Shown piece after piece: positions 10,573-47,712 of a DNA stretch of 64,000 nucleotides (position 1 is the first letter of the stretch; the number at the start of each line of letters is the position of its first letter). The position numbers and the translations under genes were made by a program. A model generated the notes under the pieces. That model worked only from the letters and a program-made list of their open reading frames with translations, was not told the DNA's origin and did not search any database. The stretch spans positions 1-64,000 of the forward strand of contig CANLBJ010000009.1 in NCBI GenBank assembly GCA_947488905.1, read 5' to 3'. Source of the DNA: Ulvibacter algarum (GTDB taxonomy: Bacteria; Bacteroidota; Bacteroidia; Flavobacteriales; Flavobacteriaceae).

Positions 10573-10584
10573 TAACAATTTTTT

Positions 10585-11196
10585 TTATCTGTCTCTAAAA
10601 AGTTTTTTAATAGCAACCAAGAGTTCGGCTTCTAGTTTGTTTAAAGATTTTGGATCTGTAGCTTTTAAAGTAGTAGCAGCAATAGGTTTATCTTCAGATG
10701 ACACTGCAATGTCATAAACTGCAGCTTCTATGGTATAAGTCGTTAATTTCTCAGTTTTATACTCTAGTTCATCATCACTTTTTCCATTTAATTTTAATGG
10801 TTCTAGAGTATTAAAATAATTGTGTAATGATTTTGCATACACCGTATCTATACTCAACGATTTTTGTGAAGCTATCAATACTTTATCAATGTTTTGCTTT
10901 TTGCATTCTAAAATAAACTGCTTAATTTCTTCTTGAGAGCGACTTTCTTTATGCTCAATTTCAGGAAATAACTCGTGCATTTTTAATGTAGAAATACCTT
11001 CTGAAATAAGAACCATTGACACTTTGTCTTCAAAATCTTCCTGCAGTGCTCTATCTTTTGTACTTGCAAAGACTAAAATACGATCAATTTTTTGTGTTTT
11101 AAAGGCTTCAGATTGCCATTGTGACGGGACTGTTTTTGAAGTTGAACAACTAGTACAAATAATAAAAGCAAGTAAGAGAAGCGTAGTAGTTTTCAT
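10585..11196 (-). CDS. lipoprotein of unknown function
   Basis: About 203 residues from the ATG at 11196 (MKTTTLLLLAFIICTSC), which gives a lipoprotein signal. The frame runs upstream to 11277 but those residues do not resemble coding sequence. The mature part alternates predicted helices and strands (DRILVFAST, DKVLIASQ), suggesting a Rossmann-like fold that may bind a small ligand. I cannot name a family. It is convergent with the SCO1-like gene, with only 12 bases between the stop codons. Confidence 0.7.
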   Translation of the reverse strand: MKTTTLLLLAFIICTSCSTSKTVPSQWQSEAFKTQKIDRILVFASTKDRALQEDFEDKVSMVLISEGISTLKMHELFPEIEHKESRSQEEIKQFILECKKQNIDKVLIASQKSLSIDTVYAKSLHNYFNTLEPLKLNGKSDDELEYKTEKLTTYTIEAAVYDIAVSSEDKPIAATTLKATDPKSLNKLEAELLVAIKKLFRDR

Positions 11197-11420
11197 AAGA
11201 AAATGTTTTGAGCAAGATACAAAAAAACGAATTTTAAAAAGTAGAAAATGATTCGCTGAATAAAACAAGCCATTCACTTAATATTGAATGTAAATTGTTG
11301 ATAAGTTGGATTATACCTTTAAATTGTAATTAACTTTGACACTATAATTAAGAATGTTTTGCCTAATCTAGATAAATTTAGATTGTCATTACAGTATAAA
11401 TAATTAATCAACCTAATAAA

Positions 11421-33421: not shown

Positions 33422-34072
33422 ATGACTAAAAAAGCAGCACAAACAGCATCTTTTATGGTGCGCTTTAGCCAGAAAATTTACGAAGAAAAAGGAGAGTCTA
33501 AAGTACAATGGCGAGGTAATGTAAGCCATGTACAGGGTGGTGAAGAATTACGTTTTTCAGATTTTAATGATGCCGTCAACTTTATTCAAGAACGCCTTGC
33601 AGAGTTGACTATTGAGGCAACTAAGCATAAAAGTAACGAAGAACAAGAAGGTATTTTGCATAAAAGTTTTTCTTTATTTAAATCTGTAGCCGCTAGTGGT
33701 AATAAGGTTTTAATGGATACCATTAAAGATCCTAAAAAGCAAGTAGCACAATTGCAAGATCAATTAACAGGTTTAGGAGAAGAGATGTGGGAGAAAGTAC
33801 CACTAGATCAATGGCGTCATGCTTCAAAATCTGATTTTCAGGACATTAAAGAAGCTATTAGTGCTTTGTCAAAATCTGTAGCGACTCTTAATAAAAAAGT
33901 AGATTTGCTAGCTACAGAAGTTGCCACGACAAAAACTGCTGCTAAAACGATGGTTGTTAAAAAAGCGCCAGCTAAAAAAACTACAGCAAAGAAGCCTGCT
34001 GCTAAAAAACCTGCCACAGGCGTTAAGAAATCGACAACAAAAGCAAAGGCTACAAAATCAGCTAAAAAATAA
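33422..34072 (+). CDS. coiled-coil protein with Lys/Ala-rich tail, likely granule or nucleoid associated
   Basis: About 216 residues from the ATG at 33422; a TTG two codons earlier is also in frame. Residues 8-60 form a small domain (MVRFSQKIYEEKGESKVQWRG, VSHVQGGEELRFSDFNDAVNFI) that I have seen in uncharacterised bacterial proteins. A helical, probably coiled-coil middle follows (about 75-175), then a basic tail of KKAPAKK/AKKPAAKK repeats like histone H1 or PhaF. It lies 7 bases upstream of the SARP regulator gene and just before the phasin-like genes, suggesting a role with lipid granules or DNA. The function is inferred. Confidence 0.72.
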   Translation: MTKKAAQTASFMVRFSQKIYEEKGESKVQWRGNVSHVQGGEELRFSDFNDAVNFIQERLAELTIEATKHKSNEEQEGILHKSFSLFKSVAASGNKVLMDTIKDPKKQVAQLQDQLTGLGEEMWEKVPLDQWRHASKSDFQDIKEAISALSKSVATLNKKVDLLATEVATTKTAAKTMVVKKAPAKKTTAKKPAAKKPATGVKKSTTKAKATKSAKK

Positions 34073-34079
34073 TTAGTTG

Positions 34080-34880
34080 ATGACTGAGCTCTCAGAAAAA
34101 TTTATAGCATTACAATCTTTCCAGAAAGAGGCGCCTATTAGGTTTCAGACTTTGGGGAGTTTTACCTTGTGGCGTGATGGAGTAAAGGTGAGCTCAAAAG
34201 AATGGGGGAGAGATAAAACGCTTCAACTAATACAGTACTTTATTTCTTATAGACAAAGGCACGCATTACATAAAGAACGTGTGATGGAACATTTATGGGA
34301 AGAAGGTGATGATCGTGATTTTAAAGTGGCACTCCACGGTGTTAATAAAGCATTAGAGCCAGATAGGCCTTCTCGCACAGAGCCAGTTTATGTACAGAGA
34401 CAAGGCATTACTTATAATTTAGATCTAGAGCAAGTTTGGGTTGATGTAGAAGCTGTGGAGCAATATATCGCACTAGGCAATGAAGCGCTCAGTGAAGAAG
34501 AGTCTCTAGCTAAAAAAGCATATAAAGCTGCTATAGACTTATATCAGGGTATGTATTTACCCACCCGCATCTTTGAAGATTGGTCATCTGAAGAACGCGA
34601 GAAAATACAAATCTTAATCTTAGGTGCATACGTGACCTTAGCTGAGCTCATACTATTAGAAAACCCAATGGAAAGCGTCCGTCTTGCACAACACGCCATC
34701 GCTATAGATGCCACATGGGAAGACGCATATCGCATACAAATGAAAGCGTACATAGCAAAAGGCAACCGTCCACACGCTATTAAAGCATACCAGAAATGCG
34801 CTGATGTACTGGAAGAAGAATATGGTATTGATCCTTTGCCAGAGACAAAGGCATTATTAAAGGAGATAGAGGGGAGGTAA
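34080..34880 (+). CDS. AfsR/SARP-type (BTAD-domain) transcriptional regulator
   Basis: About 266 residues from the ATG at 34080 (a TTG one codon upstream is also possible). An OmpR-type winged-helix domain (about residues 20-105) contains LGSFTLWRDGVKVSSKEWGRDKTLQLIQYF, RVMEHLWEE and YVQRQGITYNLDLEQVWVDVE. A bacterial transcriptional activation (BTAD) helical-repeat domain follows (about 110-265, YQGMYLPTRIFEDWSSEERE, WEDAYRIQMKAYIAKGNRPHAIKAYQ, EYGIDPLPETKALL). This is the SARP layout best known from Actinobacteria, where it binds 11-bp-spaced heptamer direct repeats close to the -10 box. Exactly such repeats occur three times just downstream. Confidence 0.88.
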   Translation: MTELSEKFIALQSFQKEAPIRFQTLGSFTLWRDGVKVSSKEWGRDKTLQLIQYFISYRQRHALHKERVMEHLWEEGDDRDFKVALHGVNKALEPDRPSRTEPVYVQRQGITYNLDLEQVWVDVEAVEQYIALGNEALSEEESLAKKAYKAAIDLYQGMYLPTRIFEDWSSEEREKIQILILGAYVTLAELILLENPMESVRLAQHAIAIDATWEDAYRIQMKAYIAKGNRPHAIKAYQKCADVLEEEYGIDPLPETKALLKEIEGR

Positions 34881-34936
34881 TTAGTAAAAAGTGATTAGTT
34901 ACAATTGGTTTTAGTCTTGTTACATTTTTTAAATTT

Positions 34937-35013
34937 CCATATTCCATATTCCATATTCCATATTCCATATTCCATATTCCATATTCCATATTCCATATTC
35001 CATATTCCATATT
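34937..35013. repeat. heptanucleotide microsatellite, 11 perfect copies of CCATATT
   Basis: Eleven uninterrupted copies of the 7-base unit CCATATT occupy 77 bases between the SARP gene stop (34880) and the first phasin promoter (35119). On the minus strand the same DNA reads as a Met-Glu-Tyr-Gly-Ile-Trp-Asn repeat frame, which is an artefact of the repeat. Perfect tracts of this kind can change copy number by replication slippage. Confidence 0.95.
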
Positions 35014-35118
35014 CTACTTCAAAACATCGTCCCAATTAAAAATATTTATAAATTTTTCGCGTAGCTAAGCCCTAGTCTACACTCACTTCTTTAAAATTTA
35101 GTTATATACATTAATTTA

Positions 35119-35154
35119 TTGCAACTCGGCTGTAACTCGTTGACTATATGTTTG
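35119..35154 (+). promoter_or_regulatory. SARP-type promoter P1 (heptamer direct repeat plus TATGTTTG)
   Basis: TGCAACT (35120-35126) and TGTAACT (35131-35137) form a heptamer direct repeat with an 11-bp period. A 9-base gap follows, then TATGTTTG (35147-35154), a perfect Bacteroidota -7 box. P1 lies 77 bases upstream of the near-identical P2 and could give an alternative, longer leader for the same phasin-like gene. Confidence 0.75.
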
Positions 35155-35195
35155 CAGTGTAAATAATTAGAGAACCGTTTAATGGTGATTGTTAT

Positions 35196-35231
35196 TTGCA
35201 ACTGAGCTGTAACTAGACCAACGTATGTTTG
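35196..35231 (+). promoter_or_regulatory. SARP-type promoter P2
   Basis: TGCAACT (35197-35203) and TGTAACT (35208-35214), 11-bp period. TATGTTTG (35224-35231) follows 9 bases later, the same geometry as P1 and P3. Transcription would start near 35238, about 33 bases before the ATG at 35271. The sequence between repeat and -7 box is not conserved, which argues that the repeat and -7 box are the functional parts. Confidence 0.8.
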
Positions 35232-35270
35232 CAGTATCAAATTAAAACAACAGTTAATAACATATATAAT

Positions 35271-35531
35271 ATGGCAACTAAGAAGACAAAAAAAGTAAAA
35301 GCAACTATCATAGAAACTACTGCTAATAAAGCATTAGGATTTGCAACAATGGCAAATGAGTTTGCCTTAGCTAAAGCAGAAAAAGCTGCAATGACCTCTT
35401 TTGATTTGACGGGCAAGTGTGTAGATTTTTCTGGTAAAGTAATTAAGAAAGGTTTAAAGATATCTGCATCACAACAAGATATGGTGTTTGGTGTATTAGG
35501 TAGTTTAAAAAAGAAAGTAGTAAAAAAATAA
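35271..35531 (+). CDS. phasin-like small protein 1
   Basis: An 86-residue protein from the ATG at 35271 (MATKKTKKVKATIIETTANK); the frame upstream to 35229 lies inside promoter P2 and is not coding. It has a basic N-terminus and two predicted amphipathic helices (about 18-40 and 45-78), with SFDLTGKCVDFSGKVIKKG and SASQQDMVFGVLGSLKKK. It shares the Q-Q-D-(L/M)-V-F motif and helical layout with the protein at 36545. Such small amphipathic proteins are typical granule-coating phasins. The family name is inference, strongly supported by the neighbouring lipid genes. Confidence 0.68.
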   Translation: MATKKTKKVKATIIETTANKALGFATMANEFALAKAEKAAMTSFDLTGKCVDFSGKVIKKGLKISASQQDMVFGVLGSLKKKVVKK

Positions 35532-35553
35532 GGTAATCAATTGATTAATAGGG

Positions 35554-35589
35554 TTGCAACTCATCTGTAACTAACAGGTAGTATGTTTG
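35554..35589 (+). promoter_or_regulatory. SARP-type promoter P3
   Basis: TGCAACT (35555-35561) and TGTAACT (35566-35572), 11-bp period, then TATGTTTG (35582-35589) after 9 bases. Identical geometry to P1 and P2. Predicted transcription start is about 36 bases before the ATG at 35632. It lies in the 100-base gap between phasin-like genes 1 and 2. Confidence 0.8.
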
Positions 35590-35631
35590 TACCATATTAA
35601 AACAATAACACAACATTTAAAATATATAGCG

Positions 35632-36504
35632 ATGACAACTAAAGTAAAAAATACAGTAACTAAAGTAAATAAAGGATTGGTAAATGCATCTATAGCAGCA
35701 ATCAATACAACAGTAGCAAATGGAGAGAAGTGGCAAAAGCTTTCTAAAAAATTAATTAAGAAATCTGAGCCAGTACGTACTAAGCAAATGAATATGGTTC
35801 TAGAAACTGCAACAGCAGTAAAAGAACAAGCTACAACTGGAGCAGAAAGAATGATGGATCTAGTAGGTTATGACGCTTCTGTTGTAGATAAGGCAATGAG
35901 CTTTGTGACTAAAAATCCAGTAAGCAAGAAAGTAATGGAAGTTGCTAGTGATGTTTCTGAAATGGTGACTAAAAACCCAGTGGTAAAGAAAGTTGAAAAA
36001 ACTACTGACGGAATCAAAAAAATGAGCATCGCAAAATATAACGATGTTAAAGAAGACGTACTTGAGCAAGCAACTAAGATTCTTAAAAAAGGAGAAGAGT
36101 TTGTAGAAGAAGCAAAAGAGCCTAAAAAAGTAGCCAAAAAAACTACAAAAAAGACAGCAAAGAAAACTGCTAAAAAAACTGTAGCAAAAAAGACAACAGC
36201 TAAAAAAGTTACAGCAAAAAAAGCCGCTCCTAAAAAAGCAGCAGTAAAAAAAGTAGCAACAAAGACAACGGCTAAAAAAACTACAGCAAAAAAAGCAGCT
36301 CCAAAGAAAACTACAGCTAAGAAAACAACAACAACGGCAAAAAAAGCAGTTAAAGTTGTTAAGACTGAAGCAGCAGAAAAAGTAGCAGCAGCAAAAAAAG
36401 TAGCTACTAAAAAAGTTGCAACAGTAGAAAAAGCAGTAAATGATCTTAAAGCAGATGTGTCTAATCAAGTTGCAGACGTTAAAAAAGAAGTTGCTAAGGC
36501 ATAA
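35632..36504 (+). CDS. phasin-like protein with histone-H1-like Lys/Ala tail (PhaF-like architecture)
   Basis: A 290-residue protein from the ATG at 35632 (MTTKVKNTVTKVNKG); upstream codons to 35587 fall in the leader. The N-terminal 150 residues are amphipathic helices (NGEKWQKLSKKLIKKSEPVRTKQMN, VLETATAVKEQATTGAERMMDLVG), with a duplicated FVTKNPVSKKVMEV/MVTKNPVVKKVEKT segment. About 110 residues of AKKTTAKK-type repeats follow, then a short helical end. Pseudomonas PhaF has this phasin-plus-H1-tail layout and ties storage granules to the nucleoid. I infer a similar role here. Confidence 0.75.
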   Translation: MTTKVKNTVTKVNKGLVNASIAAINTTVANGEKWQKLSKKLIKKSEPVRTKQMNMVLETATAVKEQATTGAERMMDLVGYDASVVDKAMSFVTKNPVSKKVMEVASDVSEMVTKNPVVKKVEKTTDGIKKMSIAKYNDVKEDVLEQATKILKKGEEFVEEAKEPKKVAKKTTKKTAKKTAKKTVAKKTTAKKVTAKKAAPKKAAVKKVATKTTAKKTTAKKAAPKKTTAKKTTTTAKKAVKVVKTEAAEKVAAAKKVATKKVATVEKAVNDLKADVSNQVADVKKEVAKA

Positions 36505-36544
36505 TTAAAAATCGCATTTTTAGAAAAGCAATAAACATATTAAA

Positions 36545-36832
36545 ATGAAAAAGAACACAAAAACAACAGCGCCAAAAGGAATGGTAACAAAAGCAGTGAA
36601 GGCTACTAAAAAAGTTGTAGCAAACGCAAATGATTATGCTTTAAATACTACAGAAACAGTTGTGACAGAAGGAATTGAAATCACAGCTCAATGGCAAACA
36701 GTAACAGAAAAAGCAATTAAAGGAGGTCTTAAACTAGCCTCAGCACAACAAGATTTAGTGTTTGATTTGCTAACATCTGTTAAAAAACAATACAAAGATG
36801 GTAAGAAGAAATTTGCCAAGCTTGTAGCATAG
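36545..36832 (+). CDS. phasin-like small protein 3
   Basis: A 95-residue protein with a basic N-terminus (MKKNTKTTAPKGMVTKAVKATKK) and an amphipathic helical core (NDYALNTTETVVTEGIEIT, WQTVTEKAIKGGLKLASAQQDLVFDLLTSVKKQ). The SAQQDLVFDLL motif is shared with SASQQDMVFGVL in the protein at 35271. It follows the PhaF-like gene by 40 bases without its own SARP-type promoter, so it is probably co-transcribed from P3. A strong terminator follows. Confidence 0.7.
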   Translation: MKKNTKTTAPKGMVTKAVKATKKVVANANDYALNTTETVVTEGIEITAQWQTVTEKAIKGGLKLASAQQDLVFDLLTSVKKQYKDGKKKFAKLVA

Positions 36833-36858
36833 TAAGTTTAGGTTTTAGATTAAGTTTA

Positions 36859-36895
36859 ACCGGGTTGTATCATAAGATACAGCTCGGTTTTTTTT
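36859..36895 (+). terminator. rho-independent terminator closing the phasin transcripts
   Basis: ACCGGGTTGTATC (36859-36871) pairs with GATACAGCTCGGT (36876-36888), 13 bp with two wobble pairs and a 4-base loop, followed by a run of eight T. It separates the phasin genes from the lipid-synthesis operon. Confidence 0.92.
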
Positions 36896-37090
36896 GTGCT
36901 AATGTTTTACTTGAGATTACTAAGTTAAATGCTTAGATTTACGTATCAATGCTACACACTAGTTGTGTGATAATTATAAGTGTCTCTACTTTTTTCTGAA
37001 ATGTTAAACATTCATTAATTGTCACGTTTGCAGGGTCTCATTACTAAGTTAATAGCAAATAAATTTCGTATTTTTACTTAAGACAAAATA

Positions 37091-37744
37091 ATGGCAAAAA
37101 AGAAAAAAATTACCGATACAAGTCTCATTGATATTTATATGGATGAGGTAGTGCTATTGGGTGGCAAACCTACAGATATTATCACTTTTGCAAATAAATT
37201 TAAGTTTACAGAAGATGATTTTTATGAGCATTATGAGAGTTTTGCAGCATTAGACCAAGCTATATTTAAGATTCTTTTTGACACCTCTGTAGCAACATTA
37301 GCAGAGAGTCCAGACTTTATTTCTTTCACTAAGAAAGACAAACTCTTGAGCTTGTTTTATACTTTTTTTGAAAACTTAACGCTTAACCGCGATTTTGTGC
37401 TAATCACAATAGAAAGTTATGGTAATCAATTAAAAGCACTGTCTTTATTCTCAGATATGAAAAATAGCTTCTCAGGCTTTATGGGGATGCTTAATTTTGA
37501 GACCATCCACCTTAATATTGAAACTGTAGAGAATATTCAGAAAATGTCTATTACAGAAGGTGCTTGGGTACAGCTGTTACTTACTATAAAATTCTGGATG
37601 ACAGATGACTCTGTAGAGATGCAAAAAACAGATATTTTTATAGAAAAATCTATAAATACAAGTTTAGAATTACTCAACACACAATCGTTCCAAAACATTC
37701 TGGACTTGGGTAAATTTTTATATAATGAAAAATTTAAATCTTAA
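37091..37744 (+). CDS. TetR-type transcriptional regulator
   Basis: A 217-residue protein. Residues 10-60 fit a diverged TetR helix-turn-helix (SLIDIYMDEVVLLGGKPTDIITFANKFKFTEDDFYEHYESFAALDQ). The C-terminal domain is all-helical and probably binds a ligand such as acyl-CoA. It heads the seven-gene lipid operon, with 9 bases to the next gene. The DNA-binding part is atypical, so regulation of this operon is an inference from position. Confidence 0.78.
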   Translation: MAKKKKITDTSLIDIYMDEVVLLGGKPTDIITFANKFKFTEDDFYEHYESFAALDQAIFKILFDTSVATLAESPDFISFTKKDKLLSLFYTFFENLTLNRDFVLITIESYGNQLKALSLFSDMKNSFSGFMGMLNFETIHLNIETVENIQKMSITEGAWVQLLLTIKFWMTDDSVEMQKTDIFIEKSINTSLELLNTQSFQNILDLGKFLYNEKFKS

Positions 37745-37753
37745 TAAATCATA

Positions 37754-39070
37754 TTGAAAACAACAAAAAATATCCCCTTATCTAAGTTAAGTCGTGCTTC
37801 AAAGCTTGTAACTACAGGCGCTAAAGTGGGGGTGAATTATTTAAAATATTATGGCGATAAAATAGTAAACTCTGAGGAGGAAGCTAAAGAGAGATTAAAT
37901 GAAAATAACGCCACAGATATCTATGACAGTTTAAAAACTCTTAAAGGTAGTGCGCTTAAAATGGCGCAAATGATGAGTATGGAGAAGAATATAATGCCTA
38001 AGGCATTTGTAGAAAAATTTTCTTTATCACAATTTTCAGTTCCTCCATTGTCAGCCCCTTTAGTTTTAAAAACATTTAAAAAATCCTTCGGAAAATTTCC
38101 AGATCAATTATTTGATGCTTTTAATACAGAAGCCGTTAATGCGGCAAGTATAGGGCAAGTGCACCGTGCAGAAAAAGAAGGTAAGACACTTGCGGTAAAA
38201 ATACAATACCCTGGCGTAGCAGATAGTGTGCAGAGTGATCTTGCTATGGTAAAACCTATTGCAATGAAGATGTTCAACATAAAAGGAGAACACTCAGAGC
38301 AGTTTTTTAAAGAAATAGAAAGTAAACTGTTAGAAGAAACTGACTACGTTTTAGAGTTGGCTCAAAGTCAAGCAGTGGTAAAAGGATGTGCACATATTCC
38401 AAATTTAATATTTCCGAAGTACTACCCAGAATATTCATCAAAACAAATTTTAACAATGGACTGGATGACGGGAATACACCTGTCAGAGTTTACACAAATA
38501 AACACAGATCAAGTAGCTTCAGATAAGTTAGGACAGGCCTTGTGGGATTTTTATATGTACCAGATGCATGTTTTACGAAAGGTACATGCAGATCCACATC
38601 CGGGCAATTTTCTTGTTTCTGAAGAGAGAGAATTAATAGCTTTAGATTTTGGATGTATGAAAGAAATTCCGAAAGAATTTTATGATCCATATTTTGAGCT
38701 GTTTAAGCAATCAACAATTAAAGATGAGGTAGCCTTTGAGGCAAACTTATTAGCTCTAGAGGTCTTACGTGATGATGATAGTGATGATGAATTAGTATTC
38801 TTTAAAAATATGTTTAAGGAGGTGTTAGATTTGTTTACAACACCTTTTCAACACAAGACTTTTAATTTTAGTGACGCTACTTTTTTTGACGAAATATCAA
38901 AACTTGGAGAACGCTACCTGAAAAACACCAATATTAGAAAATTGAATGGAAATAGAGGCTCGAGACACATAGTGTATATGAATCGTACTTTTTTTGGACT
39001 TTTTAGTTTAATGTTTGATTTAAAGGCAGATAATGTGGTGATTGATAATTACAAGAAGTATATAAAATAG
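37754..39070 (+). CDS. UbiB/ABC1 (AarF) family atypical kinase
   Basis: A 438-residue protein with a TTG start codon (no ATG fits better). Motifs: KGSALKMAQMM in place of the usual KxGQ; NAASIGQVHRA; AVKIQYPGV with the ATP-site Lys; EETDY; the catalytic HADPHPGNF; and metal-binding ALDFG. UbiB/ADCK-type proteins support quinone synthesis or lipid handling through ATPase activity. Here it lies in the lipid operon between the TetR gene and the wax ester synthase, so a lipid-related role is plausible. It lacks a C-terminal membrane pair. Confidence 0.88.
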   Translation: MKTTKNIPLSKLSRASKLVTTGAKVGVNYLKYYGDKIVNSEEEAKERLNENNATDIYDSLKTLKGSALKMAQMMSMEKNIMPKAFVEKFSLSQFSVPPLSAPLVLKTFKKSFGKFPDQLFDAFNTEAVNAASIGQVHRAEKEGKTLAVKIQYPGVADSVQSDLAMVKPIAMKMFNIKGEHSEQFFKEIESKLLEETDYVLELAQSQAVVKGCAHIPNLIFPKYYPEYSSKQILTMDWMTGIHLSEFTQINTDQVASDKLGQALWDFYMYQMHVLRKVHADPHPGNFLVSEERELIALDFGCMKEIPKEFYDPYFELFKQSTIKDEVAFEANLLALEVLRDDDSDDELVFFKNMFKEVLDLFTTPFQHKTFNFSDATFFDEISKLGERYLKNTNIRKLNGNRGSRHIVYMNRTFFGLFSLMFDLKADNVVIDNYKKYIK

Positions 39071-39147
39071 CTAACCATTTATGAGATTCCCGCGATAATT
39101 TATTCTTAGAGAGGTTTAAAGGAGGGAGTGGACAAATAAATTTATTC

Positions 39148-40986
39148 ATGGCAAAAAAAATAGATTTAAAAGATATCGTTCAAGATGCTTTTGACGGAAA
39201 TATACAACAGGTTTCAGGCTCTGATGCAGGTTTTTTATATGCAGAGTCGCCTACTAGCCCAATGCATATAGCAACTTTAAACATAGTTGAAGGATCTTTA
39301 AAGTTTGAAGATTTCCGAAGTATTGTACAATCAAAGATGCATTTGATGCCTAAGTTTAGACAACGTTTAATGAACGTGCCTATGAATTTAGATTTTCCTT
39401 ATTGGGTTAACGATCCCAACTTTGATATTGATTTGCATCTTAACCGTGTCAAGTTGCCAGATCCCGCAAACTGGAAGACGCTTCGTAAAATGACATCTAC
39501 TATTTTTAGTGCGCCGTTAGATTTAAGGCGTTCTTTATGGTCTATACATTTTATTGAAGGACTAGATGAGATAGCACAAGTGCCTAAGGGGTCTGTAGCT
39601 ATATTAAGTAAAGTACATCATGTGATGATTGATGGTAGTTCTGGTGTTGGGTTAATGGGTGTTTTGTTTGATAAAGACAAAAATGTTAATTCTAAAGATA
39701 TGCCAAAACCAACCAAGTTTGAACCAGATCCTCTACCAGATGATTTGAGTTTATTACTTAAAAGTGGTTATGGTTTTATAAAAAACCCTTTTAAATTGCC
39801 TGTAACTATAGCAGAAACTGCTTATGCGTTTTTAAAAAGTAAAGCTTCAAAGACCTTAAGTATTCAAAAAGAATTTGCTAATGCTAGATATCCTGTACCT
39901 ATTACCATATTTAATGGCTCTATCTCTGCAAGACGAACTTGGGGGACGGCAATATTATCTTTTGATAGAGTAAACTCTTTACGTGCAAAAAGTGGAGGGA
40001 GTGTCAATGATATAATTGTTGCTATTTGCGCCGGTGCCATTAGAAAATATTTGTTAGAAAAAGAGAAGTTACCTCTACAACCTCTTGTGGCAAATGTTCC
40101 TATTTCTATTAGAACCGAAAATGATAATACTACAGGTAATAAGATTGCAAATATGATGATCCAACTGGCAACTCATATTGAAAACCCTTTAGACCGTCTA
40201 GAATATATTATGGAGCAAACAATGCTTGGTAAATCTAGACATAAGACAATGGGGGCAAAGACACTTGGTAAAATGGCAGATGCTGTACCTTTTGGTCTAG
40301 CAAATCTTGCTGCGGGCTTATACAGTAAATACAATATAAAAGACTTGCATAGACCTCCTTTTAATGTAACTATTACTAATGTACCAGGACCTAGGAGCTT
40401 GTTATACCTTAATGGGCACAAAGTAGTTTCTATGTTTGGTTTAACACCAGTAGTTGATGGTTTTGGGCTAATTATTGCTGCTTTTAGTTATAATGGGCAA
40501 CTTACTATTACAGCCACTAGTGATGCTAAAACGATGCCAGATGCAGATAAGTTTGCTCGATATATAAGAGACGCAGCAAACGAGTTAGAGCTTTTAGTAA
40601 AGAAAAGTAAAAAAACAAAAGGGGCCGTTTCTGCTCAAAAGGAGAAAAGCAAAAGTACCGTCTTTTTTAACACACTAAAGCGTTATCTTAAAAAAGAGCC
40701 TACGGTAGTAGTTAAATATAAAGGGAAGTACCATATAGAGGTTGATTTGGGTAATACTGCAGAGTGTTGGTTAATAGACTTAACTGGTAAAGAAGCTGTT
40801 GTTAAAAAGACAAAAGATCTTGATCCAGACACTATGATGACAATAGAAGATGCAAACCTATATGCGATGTATAAAGGAAATTTATTGTTTGAAGAATTAA
40901 AAGTGCAACGTCGTATTAAAATAAAAGGTACAGCTGCAAATAAAAATAAATTTACCAATTTGATCAAAGAATTTTTAGATAGATAA
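39148..40986 (+). CDS. wax ester synthase/diacylglycerol acyltransferase fused to SCP2 sterol-carrier domain
   Basis: A 612-residue protein. Residues 1-480 are a WS/DGAT domain: family opening AESPTSPMHIATL, catalytic HHVMIDG (His157-His158-Asp162), and the later conserved NVPGPRSLLYLNG region. WS/DGATs use acyl-CoA to esterify diacylglycerol or fatty alcohol. After a Lys/Ser-rich linker, residues about 500-612 fit an SCP2 lipid-carrier fold (KYHIEVDLGNTAECWLIDL, MTIEDANLYAMYKGNLLFEE, RRIKIKGTAANKNKFTNL). Fusion of SCP2 to this enzyme could bring lipid substrate to the active site. Its stop codon overlaps the next start. Confidence 0.9.
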   Translation: MAKKIDLKDIVQDAFDGNIQQVSGSDAGFLYAESPTSPMHIATLNIVEGSLKFEDFRSIVQSKMHLMPKFRQRLMNVPMNLDFPYWVNDPNFDIDLHLNRVKLPDPANWKTLRKMTSTIFSAPLDLRRSLWSIHFIEGLDEIAQVPKGSVAILSKVHHVMIDGSSGVGLMGVLFDKDKNVNSKDMPKPTKFEPDPLPDDLSLLLKSGYGFIKNPFKLPVTIAETAYAFLKSKASKTLSIQKEFANARYPVPITIFNGSISARRTWGTAILSFDRVNSLRAKSGGSVNDIIVAICAGAIRKYLLEKEKLPLQPLVANVPISIRTENDNTTGNKIANMMIQLATHIENPLDRLEYIMEQTMLGKSRHKTMGAKTLGKMADAVPFGLANLAAGLYSKYNIKDLHRPPFNVTITNVPGPRSLLYLNGHKVVSMFGLTPVVDGFGLIIAAFSYNGQLTITATSDAKTMPDADKFARYIRDAANELELLVKKSKKTKGAVSAQKEKSKSTVFFNTLKRYLKKEPTVVVKYKGKYHIEVDLGNTAECWLIDLTGKEAVVKKTKDLDPDTMMTIEDANLYAMYKGNLLFEELKVQRRIKIKGTAANKNKFTNLIKEFLDR

Positions 40987-41921
40987 TGCAGTATAAAACA
41001 CATACGTTTACGGCAAGTGATGGGGAGCAAATCTGTTATTATAAATGGAATATAAATAAAGATGTACCTTTAAGGGGTGTTGTGCAAATAGCTCACGGTA
41101 TAGGCGAACACGCGGCTAGATATGATCATATTGCGCAACGATTAGTCAAAGCTGGTTTTGAGGTATATGCTAATGATCACAGGGCACACGGAAAGACAGC
41201 AGAAATTAAAAGATTATACGGCCATTATGATGGCGATGATTATTTTGAAGATGCTGTAGATGATATGCACACTTTGCGAGAATTGATGCAAAAAGAAAAC
41301 CCGGGTAGTAAGTTTGTTCTTTTTGGTCACAGTATGGGGTCACTATTAAGTAGAAAGTATGCAACTATGTATGGCCAAGACGTAGATGCGCTCATCCTTT
41401 CTGGAACGGCAAGTTTTATTAAAGGTTTAGGGCATTTTGGGCTAGCAGCAACAAAACTAGTAACAGCAGTAAAAGGTAGAGTAAAAGGTAATGAAACATT
41501 AAGAGCGATGTTTTTTGATGAGTTTAATAAAAAATTTAAACCCAACCGTACAAAGCTTGACTGGTTAAGTAGAGATGAAAAAGCAGTAGATCTTTTTGAG
41601 GCAGATCCTTATAGAATTGAAAATTTTTCTTTGGGTGTTTTTGCAGATATTATTGCAAACTCTAAAACCATTAATCAAGATAATGCTTTTAAAAATGTAC
41701 CTAATAGAATACCTATTCTCATTTTTTCTGGAGATAAAGATCCGGTAGGAGAAATGGGTAAAGGAGTTAAAAAAGTAGCAAAAAAATTTAAAAAATACGG
41801 CAATAAAGATTTGACTTTTCATCTGTATAAAGATGGGCGTCATGAAATGCTGAACGAAATAAATAGCCAAGAAGTAGAACAAGATATAATAGACTGGCTA
41901 GACGCACACATCCCCGAATGA
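40986..41921 (+). CDS. alpha/beta hydrolase, monoacylglycerol-lipase type
   Basis: A 311-residue hydrolase of the Hydrolase_4/monoglyceride lipase group: oxyanion region VQIAHGIGEHAARYD, nucleophile elbow GHSMGS (serine), FSGDKDPVGEMG with the acidic residue, and a C-terminal His (DGRHEMLNE). It starts in the WS/DGAT stop codon (TAATG) and overlaps the next gene by 4 bases, so all three are made together. Likely substrate is a mono- or diacylglycerol, giving turnover or remodelling of stored lipid. Confidence 0.9.
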   Translation: MQYKTHTFTASDGEQICYYKWNINKDVPLRGVVQIAHGIGEHAARYDHIAQRLVKAGFEVYANDHRAHGKTAEIKRLYGHYDGDDYFEDAVDDMHTLRELMQKENPGSKFVLFGHSMGSLLSRKYATMYGQDVDALILSGTASFIKGLGHFGLAATKLVTAVKGRVKGNETLRAMFFDEFNKKFKPNRTKLDWLSRDEKAVDLFEADPYRIENFSLGVFADIIANSKTINQDNAFKNVPNRIPILIFSGDKDPVGEMGKGVKKVAKKFKKYGNKDLTFHLYKDGRHEMLNEINSQEVEQDIIDWLDAHIPE

Positions 41922-43087
41922 TAATGAACGAGAAATTATATTTATATAAAACATTTGCACAATTTGCAACCACTTTAGGCCTTCTTAATGGGCTTAAAGT
42001 AAAGGATGCAAAAGAGTTGTTGATAGAAAATTTTAAAATACATCCAGAAGGTGATTTGATAATCCCATTTATCAAAAAGATGAAAATCACTAAAAATGAA
42101 GATATCAAGTTTCTTTTTAATGAGACGATACGTATCTGTGATGAGCTTGGGCCAAGTCGTGAATATATCACGTTATTAATGATAATACAGAGTATAGGTG
42201 ATGTGGTGACACAGCCAGATAGGCTAGAAGAAAGTGATATAACACAATCTGTTATTGATGCATTTAAATTTGAGATTGCAAGTATAAACCAACAAATACC
42301 AAAACCACCTTTATTTAATATGCTTTTAGAAACTCGTTCTCTTGTAGAGTGGGCTTCTATTTACGCATTGTATCCTTTTATCCCAAAAAGAATTAAAGGA
42401 GAGGGAAGACCTGTTTTATTAATTCCGCCTTATTTAGGAGATGATTACTCTACATCTTTTGTACGGAAATATCTAAAATCATTAGGCTTTAAAACTTATA
42501 AGTGGGATATGGGCTTTAATATGGTAAAGTCACATTATATACCTAGACTAGAAGAAAAGTTAGATGATATTTATCAAAAACACGGTGAGAAAGTAAGTAT
42601 TGTAGGATGGAGTGGAGGAGGTATTTTTGCAAAAATTATGGCAAATCGTCATCCTAATCAAGTAGAGCAAATAGTTACTATTGCATCACCAGTATGGGGT
42701 GTGATGGAGATGAAAACTCCTGTGTATGGTATTCTAGAATTTTTCCGTGGAAAATCTTTAAAAGAAAGAAACAAAAGATTCTTGGCAGAATTAGAGCCTA
42801 TTCCAGATGTACCAGTAACTTGTATATACACAAAAACAGACGGCTTAGTACCCTGGAAACACTGTATGGAGGCAGAAAGCTATAGAGATAATATTAAAAA
42901 CATAGAAGTTTTTGGCAGTCACTCTGGTCTTGGCGCAAACGCAAGCGTTCTTATGGTCACCGCAAATGCACTTAGGGCAAACATAAAAGGGCAATCAATT
43001 AATAATACTACTTCAAATATTGAACGTATTTTGTATCCTAATTACTGGAGAAATAAGAAGTTAAAGTTATTTACTAAAAGCTGCTAA
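41918..43087 (+). CDS. alpha/beta hydrolase (lipase-like) of the neutral-lipid operon
   Basis: A 389-residue protein. The first 150 residues are helical. The hydrolase domain (about 160-370) has PVLLIPPYLGDDYST, the nucleophile elbow GWSGGG (serine), SPVWGVMEM and a late GSHSGLGANASV that may hold the catalytic His. The layout recalls the hydrolases beside WS/DGAT genes in mycobacteria. It resembles PHA synthase distantly but has Ser instead of the Cys needed for polymerisation, so a lipase or esterase is more likely. It overlaps the previous gene by 4 bases (ATGA). Confidence 0.8.
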   Translation: MIMNEKLYLYKTFAQFATTLGLLNGLKVKDAKELLIENFKIHPEGDLIIPFIKKMKITKNEDIKFLFNETIRICDELGPSREYITLLMIIQSIGDVVTQPDRLEESDITQSVIDAFKFEIASINQQIPKPPLFNMLLETRSLVEWASIYALYPFIPKRIKGEGRPVLLIPPYLGDDYSTSFVRKYLKSLGFKTYKWDMGFNMVKSHYIPRLEEKLDDIYQKHGEKVSIVGWSGGGIFAKIMANRHPNQVEQIVTIASPVWGVMEMKTPVYGILEFFRGKSLKERNKRFLAELEPIPDVPVTCIYTKTDGLVPWKHCMEAESYRDNIKNIEVFGSHSGLGANASVLMVTANALRANIKGQSINNTTSNIERILYPNYWRNKKLKLFTKSC

Positions 43088-43102
43088 TCTAGAGGTTAAA
43101 CT

Positions 43103-46100
43103 ATGGAAGAAATAATCAACCACATAAAATTTCAGAAGACACTTAAGCGCATTGCTAAGGAGCAGAAAATGGACCTAGCAAAAGTTAAGAAAACGGCAGC
43201 AGCTTGTATAAAAGAACTGTATGCAGAACAGCGTCCTATTGCAAAAATATTAAGTGTTAAAGGTTTTGATTATATTTTATCAAGAGCTTATAGTGATAAA
43301 ATAGATGTAGATCCAGATGGCTTAAAAAAGTTAATGCGTTTAATGCGACAACATTCTGTGGCATTTATAATGACACATAAAACCTATCTAGACACCCTAG
43401 TATTGATTTCAACTCTAGCTAGATACGGGATGCCTATTCCTTATTCTTTTGGGGGTGATAATCTTGCTTTTCCAGGGCTAAAACAGCTAGGCAACAATGC
43501 TGGGATTATATTTATAAGACGCAGTTTTAAAGATGATGTTATTTATAAAGCAGCACTACGTCATTATATTTCTACAATAATAGACAAAGGGGATCATCTC
43601 ACCTGGAATATAGAGGGAACCCGCTCTAGAACCGGAAAAATATTACACCCTCAATTAGGTATTTTAAAATACATACACGAAGCAGAAAAACAGAGTACAA
43701 AACAAATCAAGTATGTGCCGGTTTCTATTGCCTATGATCTTATTCCAGATGTAAAACAAATGACAGAAGAAGGTAAGGGACTTTCTAAAAAATCTGAAAA
43801 CGTAAAAGAAGGTATTGATTATATACGTAAGTTGGGTAACGATTTTGGTCGTGCAGCAATACGTTTTGGAGATCCTGTTGCCTTTGACGATAGTCACCAT
43901 GTGACTATCCCGCACATGGAAGATGATCAATATAAAAATGAGAATAGCTTGCCACGTTTTGCTTTTGAGCTTTTAAATAGAGCTACTGCCATTACACCCG
44001 TATCTACGGTTTCTTTAATATGTAATGTTTTGCTTAATGATTTTGCACTCACCAAAAAAGAAATAGAATTTAAAGTGAGTAAATTGATGAATCACATAAG
44101 TGCAAAACGTGCAGATGTGCTTATAGATCGTGGTGTTCCTATTGCAAATACCATTCAAAAATCACTTAATTTATTAAAGAGTGCTGGTATTGTTCAAAAA
44201 AGTAGAGCAGGGCAAAAGGCACAATACAGTTTAGTATCTACAGAATACTTGCCAGCCAACTATTATGCAAATATGGCAGCAGGACATTTATACCATTCTG
44301 CATTTATTGAGATGGCTTTAGTAAAAATTAAAGATGACACATCAAAAAATAGAATTGTACATTTCTGGGAAGAGGTTATGCGTTTGCGTGACCTTTTTAA
44401 ATTTGAATTTTTCTACACAAATAAACCTCAGTTTAGTGCAGAGATAGAGGTCGAGTTAGCTAGATTTCATAAAAATTGGCGCGCTATACTAACAAACCCA
44501 AGTAAAGATGTTTCTGAAATATTAAAGAACCAAAACCTATTCGTTTCAAGATCATTATTGCTTACCTATCTAGAAGCAGACAAAGTGGTTTGCCACACAC
44601 TCAACAACTGGGACGAAGAAGACATCTTTAATGAAAAATCATTTCTTGATTTATGTATGTTTAAAGGCAAAGAACTACACTGGCAAACACGTATCACCAG
44701 ATTAGATAGTGTGTCAATACCTTTTTTAAGTAATGCTCTTAGATTTGCCGAAAATGCAAAACTCACTCCTGTAAAAAGAAGAATAAATTATAAAGGCCTA
44801 GAAAAATGGATGACGCAGCTTGATGACTTGTCTGAAAGATTAGCGTATTTAAAAGAAATAGAAGTTGATCCAAGTCTTAAAATTTTGGAACAGCAAAAAA
44901 CGACAGATTTAGTTCCAGAATCACGACAAAAAATTACGCCAGAAAAAGTGGAAGATGCAGAAGAAGGTGATCATATTACTGCTTATTTTGATATGGACAA
45001 AACCTTAATTAATGACTTTTCTGCAAAGAAGTTTATGTCTACTCGCCTTTTTAGCGGGAAGACTTCAATTAAAGAATACCTCACGCAGTTTATGACAGCA
45101 ATGGTATTTGCGCTAGGAAATCGCGACTTTGAGATATTAACAAAAATCGCAGCTCTAGGTGTAAAAGGTATTGCAGAAAAAGCTTTTACAGACCTAGGGC
45201 AAGAAGTGTTTGATGATTTTCTTACACATACTATTTACCCAGAATCACGTGAGTTAATCGCTGCACATAGAGCAAAGGGCCATCGTGTAGTAATAATCTC
45301 TGCAGCGACGTCATATCAAATTTTACCTATAGCAAAGGAGTTGGGTATTAATGATGTGTATAGCACAAATATGGAGTTACGCAACGGTAAGTTTACAGGG
45401 CGTGTTGCCGAAATGTGCTGGGGTGAAGGTAAGGCGAGAGCTGCCAGAAAATTTGCTAAAAAACACGACATAGATTTAACAAAAAGTTATTTCTACTCTG
45501 ATAGCTTTGATGATTATCCACTATTTAAATTAGTAGGTAAACCAGTAGCTACAAATCCAGATTCTAGATTATCTCAAGTAGCTTTTGAGAATAATTGGCC
45601 AATACTAAGGTTTAAAACACCTACTACAAAACCAGTTTTTAATGGTCTTCGTACAGGGTTAGCTGTAGCAAGTATATATCCTTCCGCGGCAAAAGGAGCA
45701 TTGACAGGATTAATGACTATGTCTAGACAGAAAGCTGCAAACACAACTTTTGCTAGCGTAGGTGATTTAGGAACAAGACTTGCTGGTTTAAATATTTCAG
45801 TAAAAGGGAAACACAATCTAGAAGAGTTTAGGCCTGCTGTTTTTTGTTTTAATCATCAGAGCGCAGCAGACTTTTTTATTATTATGAAAATACTCCGTAA
45901 TGATATTACAGGTGTAGCAAAAAAAGAATTAGAGCGTAGCCCAATAGGCCCTATCTTTAAAGCACTAGGAGCAATCTATGTAGACCGTAGCAATAAAGAA
46001 AAAGCAATAGAAGCTATGGAACCAGCAGTAGAGGCTTTACGCAATGGTATTTCTGTAGTAATAGCACCAGAAGGTACAAGAAGTGGTAGTATAGAGTTAG

Positions 46101-46333
46101 GGAGATTTAAAAAAGGAGCTTTCCATCTAGCTATGCAAGCAGGAGTACCTATTATACCTATTGTGATTAAGAATGCTTACCAAGCGATGCCTAAGGGAAC
46201 AAAAGTACTGCGACCTACACATATTGAGGTAGTAGTGCTAGATCCTGTAGACACGGCTTTATGGAAGATTAAGAGCATAGATAAGCATGTAGATGATGTG
46301 CGTAATATGTACTTAGCAGAATTAACTAGTTAA
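43103..46333 (+). CDS. trifunctional fusion: PlsB-like acyltransferase, HAD-IB phosphatase, PlsC acyltransferase
   Basis: A 1076-residue protein with three domains. Residues about 50-400: a PlsB-type glycerol-3-phosphate acyltransferase (HKTYLD at 92-97, then GIIFIRRSF, and EGTRSRTG). Residues about 620-830: a HAD-IB hydrolase (DMDKT near 630, IISAAT, YSDSFDDYPLF). Residues about 860-1076: a PlsC-type lysophosphatidate acyltransferase (HQSAAD near 918, IYVDRSNKEKA, APEGTRSGS near 990). This chain could turn glycerol-3-phosphate into phosphatidate and, if the HAD domain is a lipid phosphatase, on to diacylglycerol. Mycobacteria carry HAD-PlsC fusions beside a separate plsB. Phosphatase specificity is unproven. 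Confidence 0.88.
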   Translation: MEEIINHIKFQKTLKRIAKEQKMDLAKVKKTAAACIKELYAEQRPIAKILSVKGFDYILSRAYSDKIDVDPDGLKKLMRLMRQHSVAFIMTHKTYLDTLVLISTLARYGMPIPYSFGGDNLAFPGLKQLGNNAGIIFIRRSFKDDVIYKAALRHYISTIIDKGDHLTWNIEGTRSRTGKILHPQLGILKYIHEAEKQSTKQIKYVPVSIAYDLIPDVKQMTEEGKGLSKKSENVKEGIDYIRKLGNDFGRAAIRFGDPVAFDDSHHVTIPHMEDDQYKNENSLPRFAFELLNRATAITPVSTVSLICNVLLNDFALTKKEIEFKVSKLMNHISAKRADVLIDRGVPIANTIQKSLNLLKSAGIVQKSRAGQKAQYSLVSTEYLPANYYANMAAGHLYHSAFIEMALVKIKDDTSKNRIVHFWEEVMRLRDLFKFEFFYTNKPQFSAEIEVELARFHKNWRAILTNPSKDVSEILKNQNLFVSRSLLLTYLEADKVVCHTLNNWDEEDIFNEKSFLDLCMFKGKELHWQTRITRLDSVSIPFLSNALRFAENAKLTPVKRRINYKGLEKWMTQLDDLSERLAYLKEIEVDPSLKILEQQKTTDLVPESRQKITPEKVEDAEEGDHITAYFDMDKTLINDFSAKKFMSTRLFSGKTSIKEYLTQFMTAMVFALGNRDFEILTKIAALGVKGIAEKAFTDLGQEVFDDFLTHTIYPESRELIAAHRAKGHRVVIISAATSYQILPIAKELGINDVYSTNMELRNGKFTGRVAEMCWGEGKARAARKFAKKHDIDLTKSYFYSDSFDDYPLFKLVGKPVATNPDSRLSQVAFENNWPILRFKTPTTKPVFNGLRTGLAVASIYPSAAKGALTGLMTMSRQKAANTTFASVGDLGTRLAGLNISVKGKHNLEEFRPAVFCFNHQSAADFFIIMKILRNDITGVAKKELERSPIGPIFKALGAIYVDRSNKEKAIEAMEPAVEALRNGISVVIAPEGTRSGSIELGRFKKGAFHLAMQAGVPIIPIVIKNAYQAMPKGTKVLRPTHIEVVVLDPVDTALWKIKSIDKHVDDVRNMYLAELTS

Positions 46334-46362
46334 TTCTAGAATAACAAACTAAACCCAGTACT

Positions 46363-47364
46363 ATGAAAATACAAGTTGGACTTTTAGGAGGAGGATCTTG
46401 GGGAACCACAGTCGCCTCTCTTACAGCAAAAAATACGGACACAATGTTGTGGGCGCGTAATGATGAAACTGTTAAAGAGATAAACGAGTTTCATACAAAT
46501 ACTAAATATTTGCCAGGTGCTCTGCTTTGTAAAAATTTAAAAGCCTCTACTTCAATTCAAGAAGTAGTTGAAAATGCAGATGTTCTTGTGATGGGAGTGC
46601 CATCGCAACATTTTAGACAAGTGTTAATAGAAGCAAAACCTTTTATTAGACCGTGGATACCAATTATAAGCCTCGCTAAGGGTCTAGAATTAGGAACCAA
46701 AATGCGAATGAGCCAGATTATTGAAGAAGAGCTACCAGGACATCCGGCAGGAGTTTTAACAGGACCTAATTTAGCCAAAGAAATTCATAACGGGCAGGCA
46801 GCAGCGGCTGTTATTGCAATGGTAGATAAAACTATTGGTAAAAAACTACAAGGCGTTTTTAACTCAGGACTTTTTAGAGTGTACACAAACACAGATGTGA
46901 TAGGTTGTGAATTAGGAGGAGCACTTAAAAATATTATGGCAATAGCTACAGGTATGGGCGATGGTGCAAATGCTGGAGATAATACTAGAGCAGCTTTAAT
47001 TACTAGAGGTCTTTCTGAGCTTACTAGATTAGGTACAGCAATGGGTGGTAAACGACGTACGTTTGCGGGTCTTGCAGGTATGGGAGATCTAGTGGCTACT
47101 TGTTCTAGTGATAAGTCTAGAAATCATCATGTAGGCTTCCAGATTGGTAGAGGTAAGAGTCTTGATCAGATAATAGAAGAGATGAATGAGGTTGCAGAAG
47201 GGGTGAAAACAGCAAAAGCTGTAATGGAACTAGCAGCAGATTATAAAGTAGATATGCCCATCTCTCGTGAAGTCTATAAAGTCTTGTATGAAGGAAATAC
47301 GGTAATAGATGCCTTTAAAAGCTTAGTTAAGATGGAGAGTGGTAGTGAACAAGAGCCTGGTTAA
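46363..47364 (+). CDS. gpsA: NAD(P)H-dependent glycerol-3-phosphate dehydrogenase
   Basis: A 333-residue enzyme reducing DHAP to glycerol-3-phosphate. It has the N-terminal Rossmann motif GLLGGGSWGTTVASL, VLVMGVPSQHFR, the catalytic Lys region ISLAKGLE, GPNLAKEI, GCELGGALKNIMAIATGMGDG and GLAGMGDLVATCSSDKSRN. It is the last gene of the operon, 29 bases after the PlsB-HAD-PlsC gene. It supplies the glycerol backbone for the preceding acyltransferases. Confidence 0.96.
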   Translation: MKIQVGLLGGGSWGTTVASLTAKNTDTMLWARNDETVKEINEFHTNTKYLPGALLCKNLKASTSIQEVVENADVLVMGVPSQHFRQVLIEAKPFIRPWIPIISLAKGLELGTKMRMSQIIEEELPGHPAGVLTGPNLAKEIHNGQAAAAVIAMVDKTIGKKLQGVFNSGLFRVYTNTDVIGCELGGALKNIMAIATGMGDGANAGDNTRAALITRGLSELTRLGTAMGGKRRTFAGLAGMGDLVATCSSDKSRNHHVGFQIGRGKSLDQIIEEMNEVAEGVKTAKAVMELAADYKVDMPISREVYKVLYEGNTVIDAFKSLVKMESGSEQEPG

Positions 47365-47495: not shown

Positions 47496-47580
47496 GGAGA
47501 GTTGGCAGAGTGGTCGAATGCGGCAGTCTTGAAAACTGTTGAGGGTCACACCTCCAGGGGTTCGAATCCCTTACTCTCCG
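47496..47580 (+). tRNA. tRNA-Ser (anticodon TGA)
   Basis: An 85-base class II tRNA. The acceptor stem GGAGAGT/ACTCTCC is perfect, with discriminator G47580. The anticodon arm CAGTC-TTGAAAACTG gives TGA. A long variable arm (GAGGGTCACACCTCC) is present, as expected for tRNA-Ser. The T arm is AGGGG-TTCGAAT-CCCTT. No CCA is encoded. It stands alone, with its own promoter and terminator. Confidence 0.96.
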
Positions 47581-47588
47581 CAAAATTT

Positions 47589-47672: not shown

Positions 47673-47712
47673 CTTTATTTTAAGGAGTTATTACTTACTG
47701 TATTAAGAATTG

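Follow-up and report, generated by a model that had tools for sequence, protein, structure and literature searches.

A probable mobile cassette for triacylglycerol droplets in Flavobacteriaceae, with phasin-like genes downstream of predicted SARP-type operators

Introduction

Neutral-lipid droplets have been studied chiefly in actinobacteria and in some proteobacteria. Here we describe a locus of twelve genes, all on the plus strand, that spans positions 33422-47364 of a 64,000-nucleotide stretch of Ulvibacter algarum DNA (positions 1 to 64,000 of contig CANLBJ010000009.1; the whole stretch is called the window below) and that is probably a horizontally moving cassette making, coating and regulating triacylglycerol droplets. 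In order, the locus encodes a protein named phm1, a SARP-type regulator, three phasin-like proteins (ph2, ph3 and ph4; all four names are coined in the present work), a TetR-family regulator, an ABC1/UbiB-type kinase-like protein, a WS/DGAT acyltransferase, two alpha/beta hydrolases, a PlsB–HAD–PlsC fusion and the glycerol-3-phosphate dehydrogenase GpsA. A first-pass annotation of this DNA had proposed a dedicated neutral-lipid locus; the genes that it named were all confirmed at their positions, and their domains, the conservation of catalytic motifs and of clustering, and their all-or-none co-occurrence argue for the same conclusion. Our analysis adds the SCP2 domain, the SARP-type operators, helix-hairpin-helix tails, a rotation of gene order and a prior report on Flavobacteriia.

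That report describes the closest known loci, flavobacterial WS/DGAT–SCP2 loci from Antarctic and Subantarctic sediments, spanning seven flavobacterial genera (PMC10351704). They share with the window a WS/DGAT of ~613 amino acids with a C-terminal extension, an SCP2 domain (in two of the report's four metagenome sequences) and a 1-acyl-glycerol-3-phosphate acyltransferase/hydrolase in the genomic context. Its main-text passages name no Bacteroidota phasin-like genes, SARP, phm1, operator, rotated orders or all-or-none distribution, and the one place in the main text that uses the word 'phasin' is about a betaproteobacterial scaffold. Among the matches listed in our literature search, whose coverage leaves out most subscription journals and preprints, none described the phasin-like genes, the phm1–SARP pair or the operator. 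The coat genes, the regulator pair and the operator are candidate new parts beyond the earlier-reported WS/DGAT–SCP2 loci.

In actinobacteria, the Kennedy-pathway cluster of Rhodococcus jostii (atf9-plsB-plsC-like; described in PMC10351704) has the same neighbourhood of WS/DGAT, PlsB, HAD–PlsC fusion and alpha/beta hydrolase, and a Mycobacterium paragordonae plasmid carries WS/DGAT, alpha/beta hydrolase, HAD–PlsC and PlsB within one stretch. On the plasmid, however, PlsB is unfused to HAD–PlsC, the order is different, identity is 32.5% over 94% of the window's fusion, and neither a phasin nor a SARP is annotated on the 15-kb stretch. What stands of the actinobacterial relation suggested by the first-pass annotation is only a set of shared families in a shared neighbourhood. 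In the gene-order comparison that it had called for, Flavobacteriaceae have the cassette in two orders and Saprospiraceae in rearranged form, and the M. paragordonae plasmid has an unfused counterpart.

Proteins that link storage bodies to DNA are known from other lineages. In R. jostii RHA1, the Lys-tailed, DNA-binding droplet protein MLDS is predicted to share one operon with the regulator MLDSR, which droplets sequester (PMC5504291). On polyhydroxyalkanoate (PHA) granules, PhaF of Pseudomonas joins a granule-binding domain to a histone-like AAKP-type tail that ties granules to nucleoid DNA, and the phasin-like PhaM of Ralstonia attaches granules to the nucleoid (PMC5658603). The SARPs of Streptomyces antibiotic clusters share the BTAD domain with the regulator studied here. 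Their sites near the promoter are, as in the cassette, directly repeated heptamers separated by 4 nt (PMC10972967). Their targets lie in antibiotic clusters, whereas the apparent target in Bacteroidota is a granule coat.

Distribution and gene order

In Flavobacteriaceae, three of the cassette genes are present or absent together. WS/DGAT (PF03007), the fusion (E<=1e-30) and phm1 each occur in 11 of 397 Flavobacteriaceae genomes, and the eleven are identical; within the window's genus, WS/DGAT was found in 4 of 11 genomes, several of the others being incomplete. Among the eleven cassette loci fetched first, nine follow the window's order throughout the twelve genes, one (L043) is rearranged and one (L046) is cut by a contig end. 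Across the phylum, some WS/DGAT is encoded in 21 of 395 genomes, and nine WS/DGAT loci from the 20 other positive phylum genomes (L047-L055; 22-26% identity to the window's protein) had no other cassette gene and were for that reason set aside.

A scan of named genomes for the fusion gave 580 stretches, 391 of which encode a relative, and the best 80 were kept: 50 are Flavobacteriaceae by title and 30 are others, mostly Saprospiraceae. Several of the 80 come from genomes of the first eleven, and the two sets are not additive. The locus nearest to the window among the best 80 of 391 belongs to a metagenome-assembled genome (MAG) labelled Ulvibacter, at 87% in the fusion. Of the 50 Flavobacteriaceae loci, 24 have the window's order (order I), 22 have a second order (order II) and 4, on short stretches, are undecided. 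Order II is a rotation of order I, with WS/DGAT to GpsA first and phm1 onward next. All twelve genes were found in 28 of the 50 loci, and the nine that exclude ph2, TetR and ABC1 in 38. Outside the family, 10 of the 30 loci combine the fusion with WS/DGAT and with phasin-like genes, and 8 of these 10 have phm1 and SARP as well; gene order and strand differ from those in the family. WS/DGAT lies within the fetched stretch in 14 of the 30. phm1 was detected in 12 of 21 genomes searched, once as a weak fragment. Both WS/DGAT and phm1 were found in seven genomes, in five of them on the same contig within ~7 kb and in two, including the one with the weak fragment, on different contigs.

Several features suggest that the cassette may be transferred as a unit; MAG labels may be wrong. 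A tree of 79 fusion rows, built by a quick method, places Dokdonia sinensis with Patiriisocius marinistellae, with full support, and apart from Patiriisocius marinus. In the same tree a Maribacter MAG joins two species of Winogradskyella, and the order-II group includes one Winogradskyella MAG. When six cassette-flanking genes were sought in the fetched loci (flanks of ~2-5 kb), only P. marinus shared any, namely two on the right side. Pairwise distances of the cassette genes correlate at 0.47-0.90. Two of the 30 loci outside Flavobacteriaceae, on MAG contigs labelled Chloroflexi and Anaerolineales (L122 and L130), encode the fusion with an identity of 48-49% and cluster with each other; either transfer or wrong binning would account for this.

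Operator sites upstream of the coat genes

Comparison of the intergenic regions of 23 order-I loci brought out TGCAACT/TGTAACT heptamers 5' of ph2 and ph3, paired as TGYAACT-N4-TGYAACT. The window has three exact copies, all on the plus strand, and the rest of the 3.55-Mb genome has none. Copy 1 (35120-35137) and copy 2 (35197-35214) lie upstream of ph2 (35271..35531), copy 2 at 74 bp 5' of the gene, and copy 3 (35555-35572) lies 77 bp 5' of ph3 (35632..36504). Each is followed by a TATGTTTG box, at 35147-35154, 35224-35231 and 35582-35589, respectively.

We searched 20 chosen genomes, 11 with and 9 without the cassette, for the exact pattern. Of 25 sites, 24 fall inside cassettes and one lies elsewhere (in genome G364); no site was found in any of the nine cassette-free genomes, and a reversed control pattern matched once across the 20. 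Among the window and the 80 loci, 94 of 95 sites precede ph2, ph3 or ph4 and the other is at a contig end, with no site in 19 control loci (213,600 bases). The operator was present in 52 of 52 of these loci that have a phasin-like gene and in 0 of 29 that lack one, and eight further short loci gave the same split (3 of 3 and 0 of 5).

Most sites also keep a fixed distance to a predicted promoter element. The box TAnnTTTG, described as the sigma-A -7 box of flavobacteria (PMC9723704), follows exactly 9 bp after the site in 85 of 95 cases, where shuffling of the 25 nt yields ~1.2 boxes at any position, and TTTG stands 13 bp after the site in 91 of 95; the box was spotted only after the repeats. 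A plain promoter pattern, TTG-N16-24-TAnnTTTG, in four intergenic regions was found in 1, 0, 0 and 0 loci, not above expectation. The sites that SARPs generally recognize are directly repeated heptamers, 4-15 nt apart and classically in an 11-bp unit, that overlap the -35 region (PMC10972967), and TGYAACT-N4-TGYAACT, as a heptameric direct repeat near its predicted target promoter, has the features of such a site.

A position-matrix scan (score >=10, up to 300 bp upstream) returned no site before phm1, SARP, TetR, ABC1, WS/DGAT, the hydrolases, the fusion or GpsA in these loci, and sites do precede ph2-ph4. The parsimonious reading is that SARP would activate the coat genes only. The matrix was trained on sites that include the window's own, which makes the scan of the window partly circular; the genome-wide exact count is less so, though the pattern was first read off these loci. 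Allowing two mismatches in the window gave 7 matches against 3.49 expected, a number reached in 7 of 100 shuffles and not significant, and our claims about operators in the window use only the three exact matches.

The candidate for binding these sites is the SARP-type regulator (34080..34880). Members of the SARP family join a BTAD domain to an N-terminal OmpR-type winged helix. The window's protein matches the BTAD domain (PF03704) at 64.2 bits against a cut-off of 22.1; no Pfam winged-helix match was listed, and a weak NCBIfam match to AfsR covers residues 16-262. That SARP binds the operator is a prediction, and a real operator might instead be bound by another regulator, such as TetR or a genome-wide factor, with the SARP acting on a target elsewhere. 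Two loci (L128 and L134) indeed have sites but no SARP in the fetched stretch; however, the L128 genome has phm1 and SARP elsewhere, and the L134 genome has phm1 elsewhere. The 11-bp unit is the geometry of a classical SARP site, the absence of sites from all nine cassette-free genomes speaks against such other factors, and a cassette-type TetR was found in 0 of the 30 loci outside Flavobacteriaceae, ten of which carry the site. We therefore consider binding by another regulator unlikely.

Between SARP and the operators, a perfect 11.4-unit run of TTCCATA occupies 34935-35014 and is far shorter in the nearest relative (L058). It could be a length-variable spacer 5' of the phasin promoters.

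Predicted lipid enzymes

Enzyme families for the whole route from dihydroxyacetone phosphate to triacylglycerol are present in this one locus, with the HAD domain as predicted phosphatidate phosphatase. GpsA (46363..47364), an NAD(P)H glycerol-3-phosphate dehydrogenase, passes the NCBIfam cut-off (495.5 versus 436) and, as one of three PF07479 genes in the genome, is additional to two others. The fusion (43103..46333) is a single 1076-amino-acid frame that joins a GPAT_C, an HAD-IB and a PlsC acyltransferase domain, corresponding to a glycerol-3-phosphate acyltransferase, a putative phosphatidate phosphatase and a 1-acyl-glycerol-3-phosphate acyltransferase; its motifs are kept in 79 (PlsB), 81 (HAD) and 80 (PlsC) of 81 loci. 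WS/DGAT (39148..40986) scores 389.7 bits against the TIGR02946 cut-off of 309.95 and ends in an SCP2 domain (PF02036, 29.9 versus 21.3 bits). Its HHxxxDG motif, HHVMIDG in the window, was found in 60 of 62 loci, with H157, H158, D162 and G163 invariant across 11. Structures have been solved for relatives of the acyltransferase part (7nxg and 6chj) and of SCP2 (1c44).

The first hydrolase (40986..41921) resembles monoacylglycerol lipases (Hydrolase_4, PF12146, 173.7 bits), with a GHSMG box in the window and GHSxG in 51 of 52 loci. The second (41924..43087) has weak alpha/beta-hydrolase matches only and a GWSGG box; G-x-S-G/A-G is present in 55 of 66 loci. Upstream lie the genes for the TetR-family regulator (37091..37744; TetR_C_23, PF17931, 117.5 bits) and the ABC1/UbiB-type kinase-like protein (37754..39070; PF03109, 194.4 bits). 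The first-pass annotation had placed TetR to GpsA in one operon, which is plausible given median intergenic gaps of 7, 90, 3, 6, 6 and 42 bp across the 23 order-I loci; ph2 and ph3 have separate predicted promoter elements of their own. In the rearranged cassette (L043), a single open reading frame of 1058 amino acids with glycerol kinase and glycerol-3-phosphate dehydrogenase domains (10534-13710) lies upstream of WS/DGAT.

WS/DGAT enzymes are often bifunctional, which counts towards a main product that is a wax ester or another acyl ester instead of triacylglycerol, and the names of the two solved relatives, 'O-acyltransferase WSD' and 'Diacylglycerol O-acyltransferase', leave that choice undecided. 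The other synthetic genes, however, handle glycerol backbones (GpsA, PlsB, PlsC and the L043 glycerol kinase–dehydrogenase frame), and none of the twelve genes resembles a fatty acyl-CoA reductase. The family used to test for that reductase, PF07993, has 6 matches in the window's genome but was positive in 14 of 14 control genomes; it is too broad, and we therefore drew no conclusion about wax esters from it. On the gene content we infer triacylglycerol, and a different main ester appears distinctly unlikely.

Phasin-like proteins and the phm1–SARP pair

ph2 (86 amino acids) and ph4 (36545..36832; 95 amino acids) are relatives of each other by tblastn, and some ph3 N termini weakly resemble ph4. 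The window's ph2, ph3 and ph4 have no Pfam match above cut-off, the phasin family PF05597 included. In an alignment of ph3, PF05597 matches 15 of 27 members at E<=1, with a best value of 2.8e-5, and these weak matches of homologues tentatively suggest the label 'phasin-like'. The Apolipoprotein family matches 15 of the same 27, and a helix-hairpin-helix family matches 22 of the 27 homologues at E<=1. A GIGP/GVGP hairpin motif occurs in 35 of 48 ph3 sequences. The window's ph3, which has 290 amino acids and a Lys-rich AKKA tail, is among the 13 without the motif, most of which are Lys-rich. A structure model of a ph3 homologue (mean predicted local distance difference test (pLDDT) 60.2) is good only in its helical C-terminal helix-hairpin-helix (block pLDDT 75-95), and its first Foldseek rows are RAD51/RadA-type proteins at E 1.7 or worse, together with polymerase iota, NusA and others. 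The ph3 tail, whether Lys-rich or helix-hairpin-helix, suggests a tether between droplet and DNA. PhaF and PhaM differ in serving PHA rather than neutral lipid, and many ph3 homologues finish instead in a helix-hairpin-helix.

phm1 (33422..34072; 216 amino acids) is a putative droplet-surface protein paired with SARP, with an N-terminal beta-beta-beta-alpha domain, long helices and a Lys-rich tail. Its model (mean pLDDT 65.8) is good in the N-terminal domain only, and Foldseek returned CorA and others with a best E of 0.036; we take the Foldseek matches of both models as weak hints only. phm1 and SARP share a strand and lie at most 200 bp apart in 53 of 54 loci, at 329 bp in the 54th, and both are present in 8 of 8 further short loci. 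A long Lys-rich tail occurs in 25 of 55 phm1 sequences, the window's included and all of order I; another sequence (L070) is truncated at the start. On adjacency and tail, phm1 and SARP are a candidate counterpart of MLDS–MLDSR. MLDSR has an XRE-type helix-turn-helix, whereas the regulator here is a SARP with a BTAD domain and not of XRE type.

Two further genes occur in relatives. In Ulvibacter antarcticus (L042, 4872-5177), SARP and ph2 are separated by a fourth phasin-like gene, a small one, and in the rearranged cassette (L043, 151-882) a 243-amino-acid protein with no Pfam match above cut-off is encoded between SARP and the phasin-like genes.

The cassette might alternatively remodel membrane phospholipids under stress, with droplets incidental and the phasin-like proteins on membranes or DNA. 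GpsA, PlsB and PlsC double as phospholipid genes, and amphipathic-helix (Apolipoprotein) matches would fit a membrane as well as a droplet. WS/DGAT and the phasin-like genes nevertheless stay clustered across rotated and rearranged orders, and the genome has two other PF07479 genes, and so we hold phospholipid remodelling to be very unlikely. As for a PHA granule locus, which a phasin-like coat and remote PhaC-like profile matches of an alpha/beta hydrolase might recall, the window's genome gave no match to PhaC_N (PF07167) and the PhaC-like Cys lipase box was found in 0 of 66 loci of the second hydrolase; the earlier judgement that PHA is less likely is upheld, and we rate it as extremely improbable.

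Flanking sequence

A tRNA-Ser gene (tga; 47496-47581) lies between GpsA and a GldJ-like gene (47710-49440) and was considered as an integration site. The GldJ-like gene, directly 3' of the cassette, is a second copy, the other being on contig C1 of the same genome; the nine other genomes searched have one each (fragmented in G007). We had considered this flank as a marker of an empty insertion site and rejected it: the second copy is present in the window's genome alone among the ten searched and therefore cannot mark such a site.

Discussion

Starting from gene content, linkage, distribution and the operator, which can be read directly from the DNA, we consider it likely that the cassette makes, coats and regulates triacylglycerol droplets and moves between genomes. 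In the mechanism that we propose, GpsA would supply glycerol-3-phosphate, the PlsB–HAD–PlsC fusion would add two acyl chains and remove the phosphate, and WS/DGAT–SCP2 would add the third chain, its SCP2 part probably retaining lipid at the surface of the droplet. Mobilization of the stored lipid would fall to the two hydrolases. ph2, ph3 and ph4 would coat the droplet in the manner of phasins, and ph3 may tie droplets to the chromosome through its Lys-rich or helix-hairpin-helix tail. SARP, encoded with phm1, would bind TGYAACT-N4-TGYAACT just 5' of the TAnnTTTG promoter and activate the phasin-like genes, so that coat supply would track droplet state.

Several observations weigh against this reading. 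The function of the cassette is read from sequence, with lipid, expression and binding all predicted. The ph3 homologue for which bits are given scores 20.2 against a PF05597 gathering cut-off of 28.8, the models of phm1 and of the ph3 homologue are poor outside one domain each, and Foldseek found no match to either at E<=0.001. phm1 of order II and of loci outside Flavobacteriaceae has no long Lys tail, and Tenacibaculum aquimarinum (L090) has phm1–SARP with neither a phasin-like gene nor an operator in the fetched stretch. Ten of the 95 sites lack an exact TAnnTTTG, and one exact operator, the sole such site in the 20 genomes searched, lies outside any cassette (G364:C1:1604907-1604924). No TetR or ABC1 turned up in 13 of the 22 order-II loci, which do have SARP, in some cases only through the ends of contigs or fetched stretches. 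Among the 16 loci outside Flavobacteriaceae with no adjacent WS/DGAT, 4 genomes, of unstated completeness, show none at all and 12 have one elsewhere.

That unrelated genes merely travel together is likewise extremely improbable: the neighbours of the cassette do differ among congeners, but its content survives rotation and inversion across two families of bacteria, and one operator is tied to one gene class.

A more ambitious proposal, which we put forward only tentatively and think somewhat less likely than not to hold in full, is that Bacteroidota evolved a droplet organelle of their own, whose coat circuit is self-sensing. Droplet-borne phm1 would bind or release SARP, and SARP, acting at a phase-locked operator that is almost confined to this cassette, would switch on a coat that anchors droplets to the chromosome by a histone-like or helix-hairpin-helix tail, convergently with MLDS–MLDSR and with PhaF and PhaM, the whole spreading between genera as a unit.

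A portable, all-or-none kit that includes a coat, mobilization and dedicated regulation would make carbon storage in marine flavobacteria testable by staining and gene deletion. The operator offers a direct and falsifiable link from SARP to the coat genes. Judging by the helix-hairpin-helix tails, a storage organelle may here have become tied to the chromosome independently.

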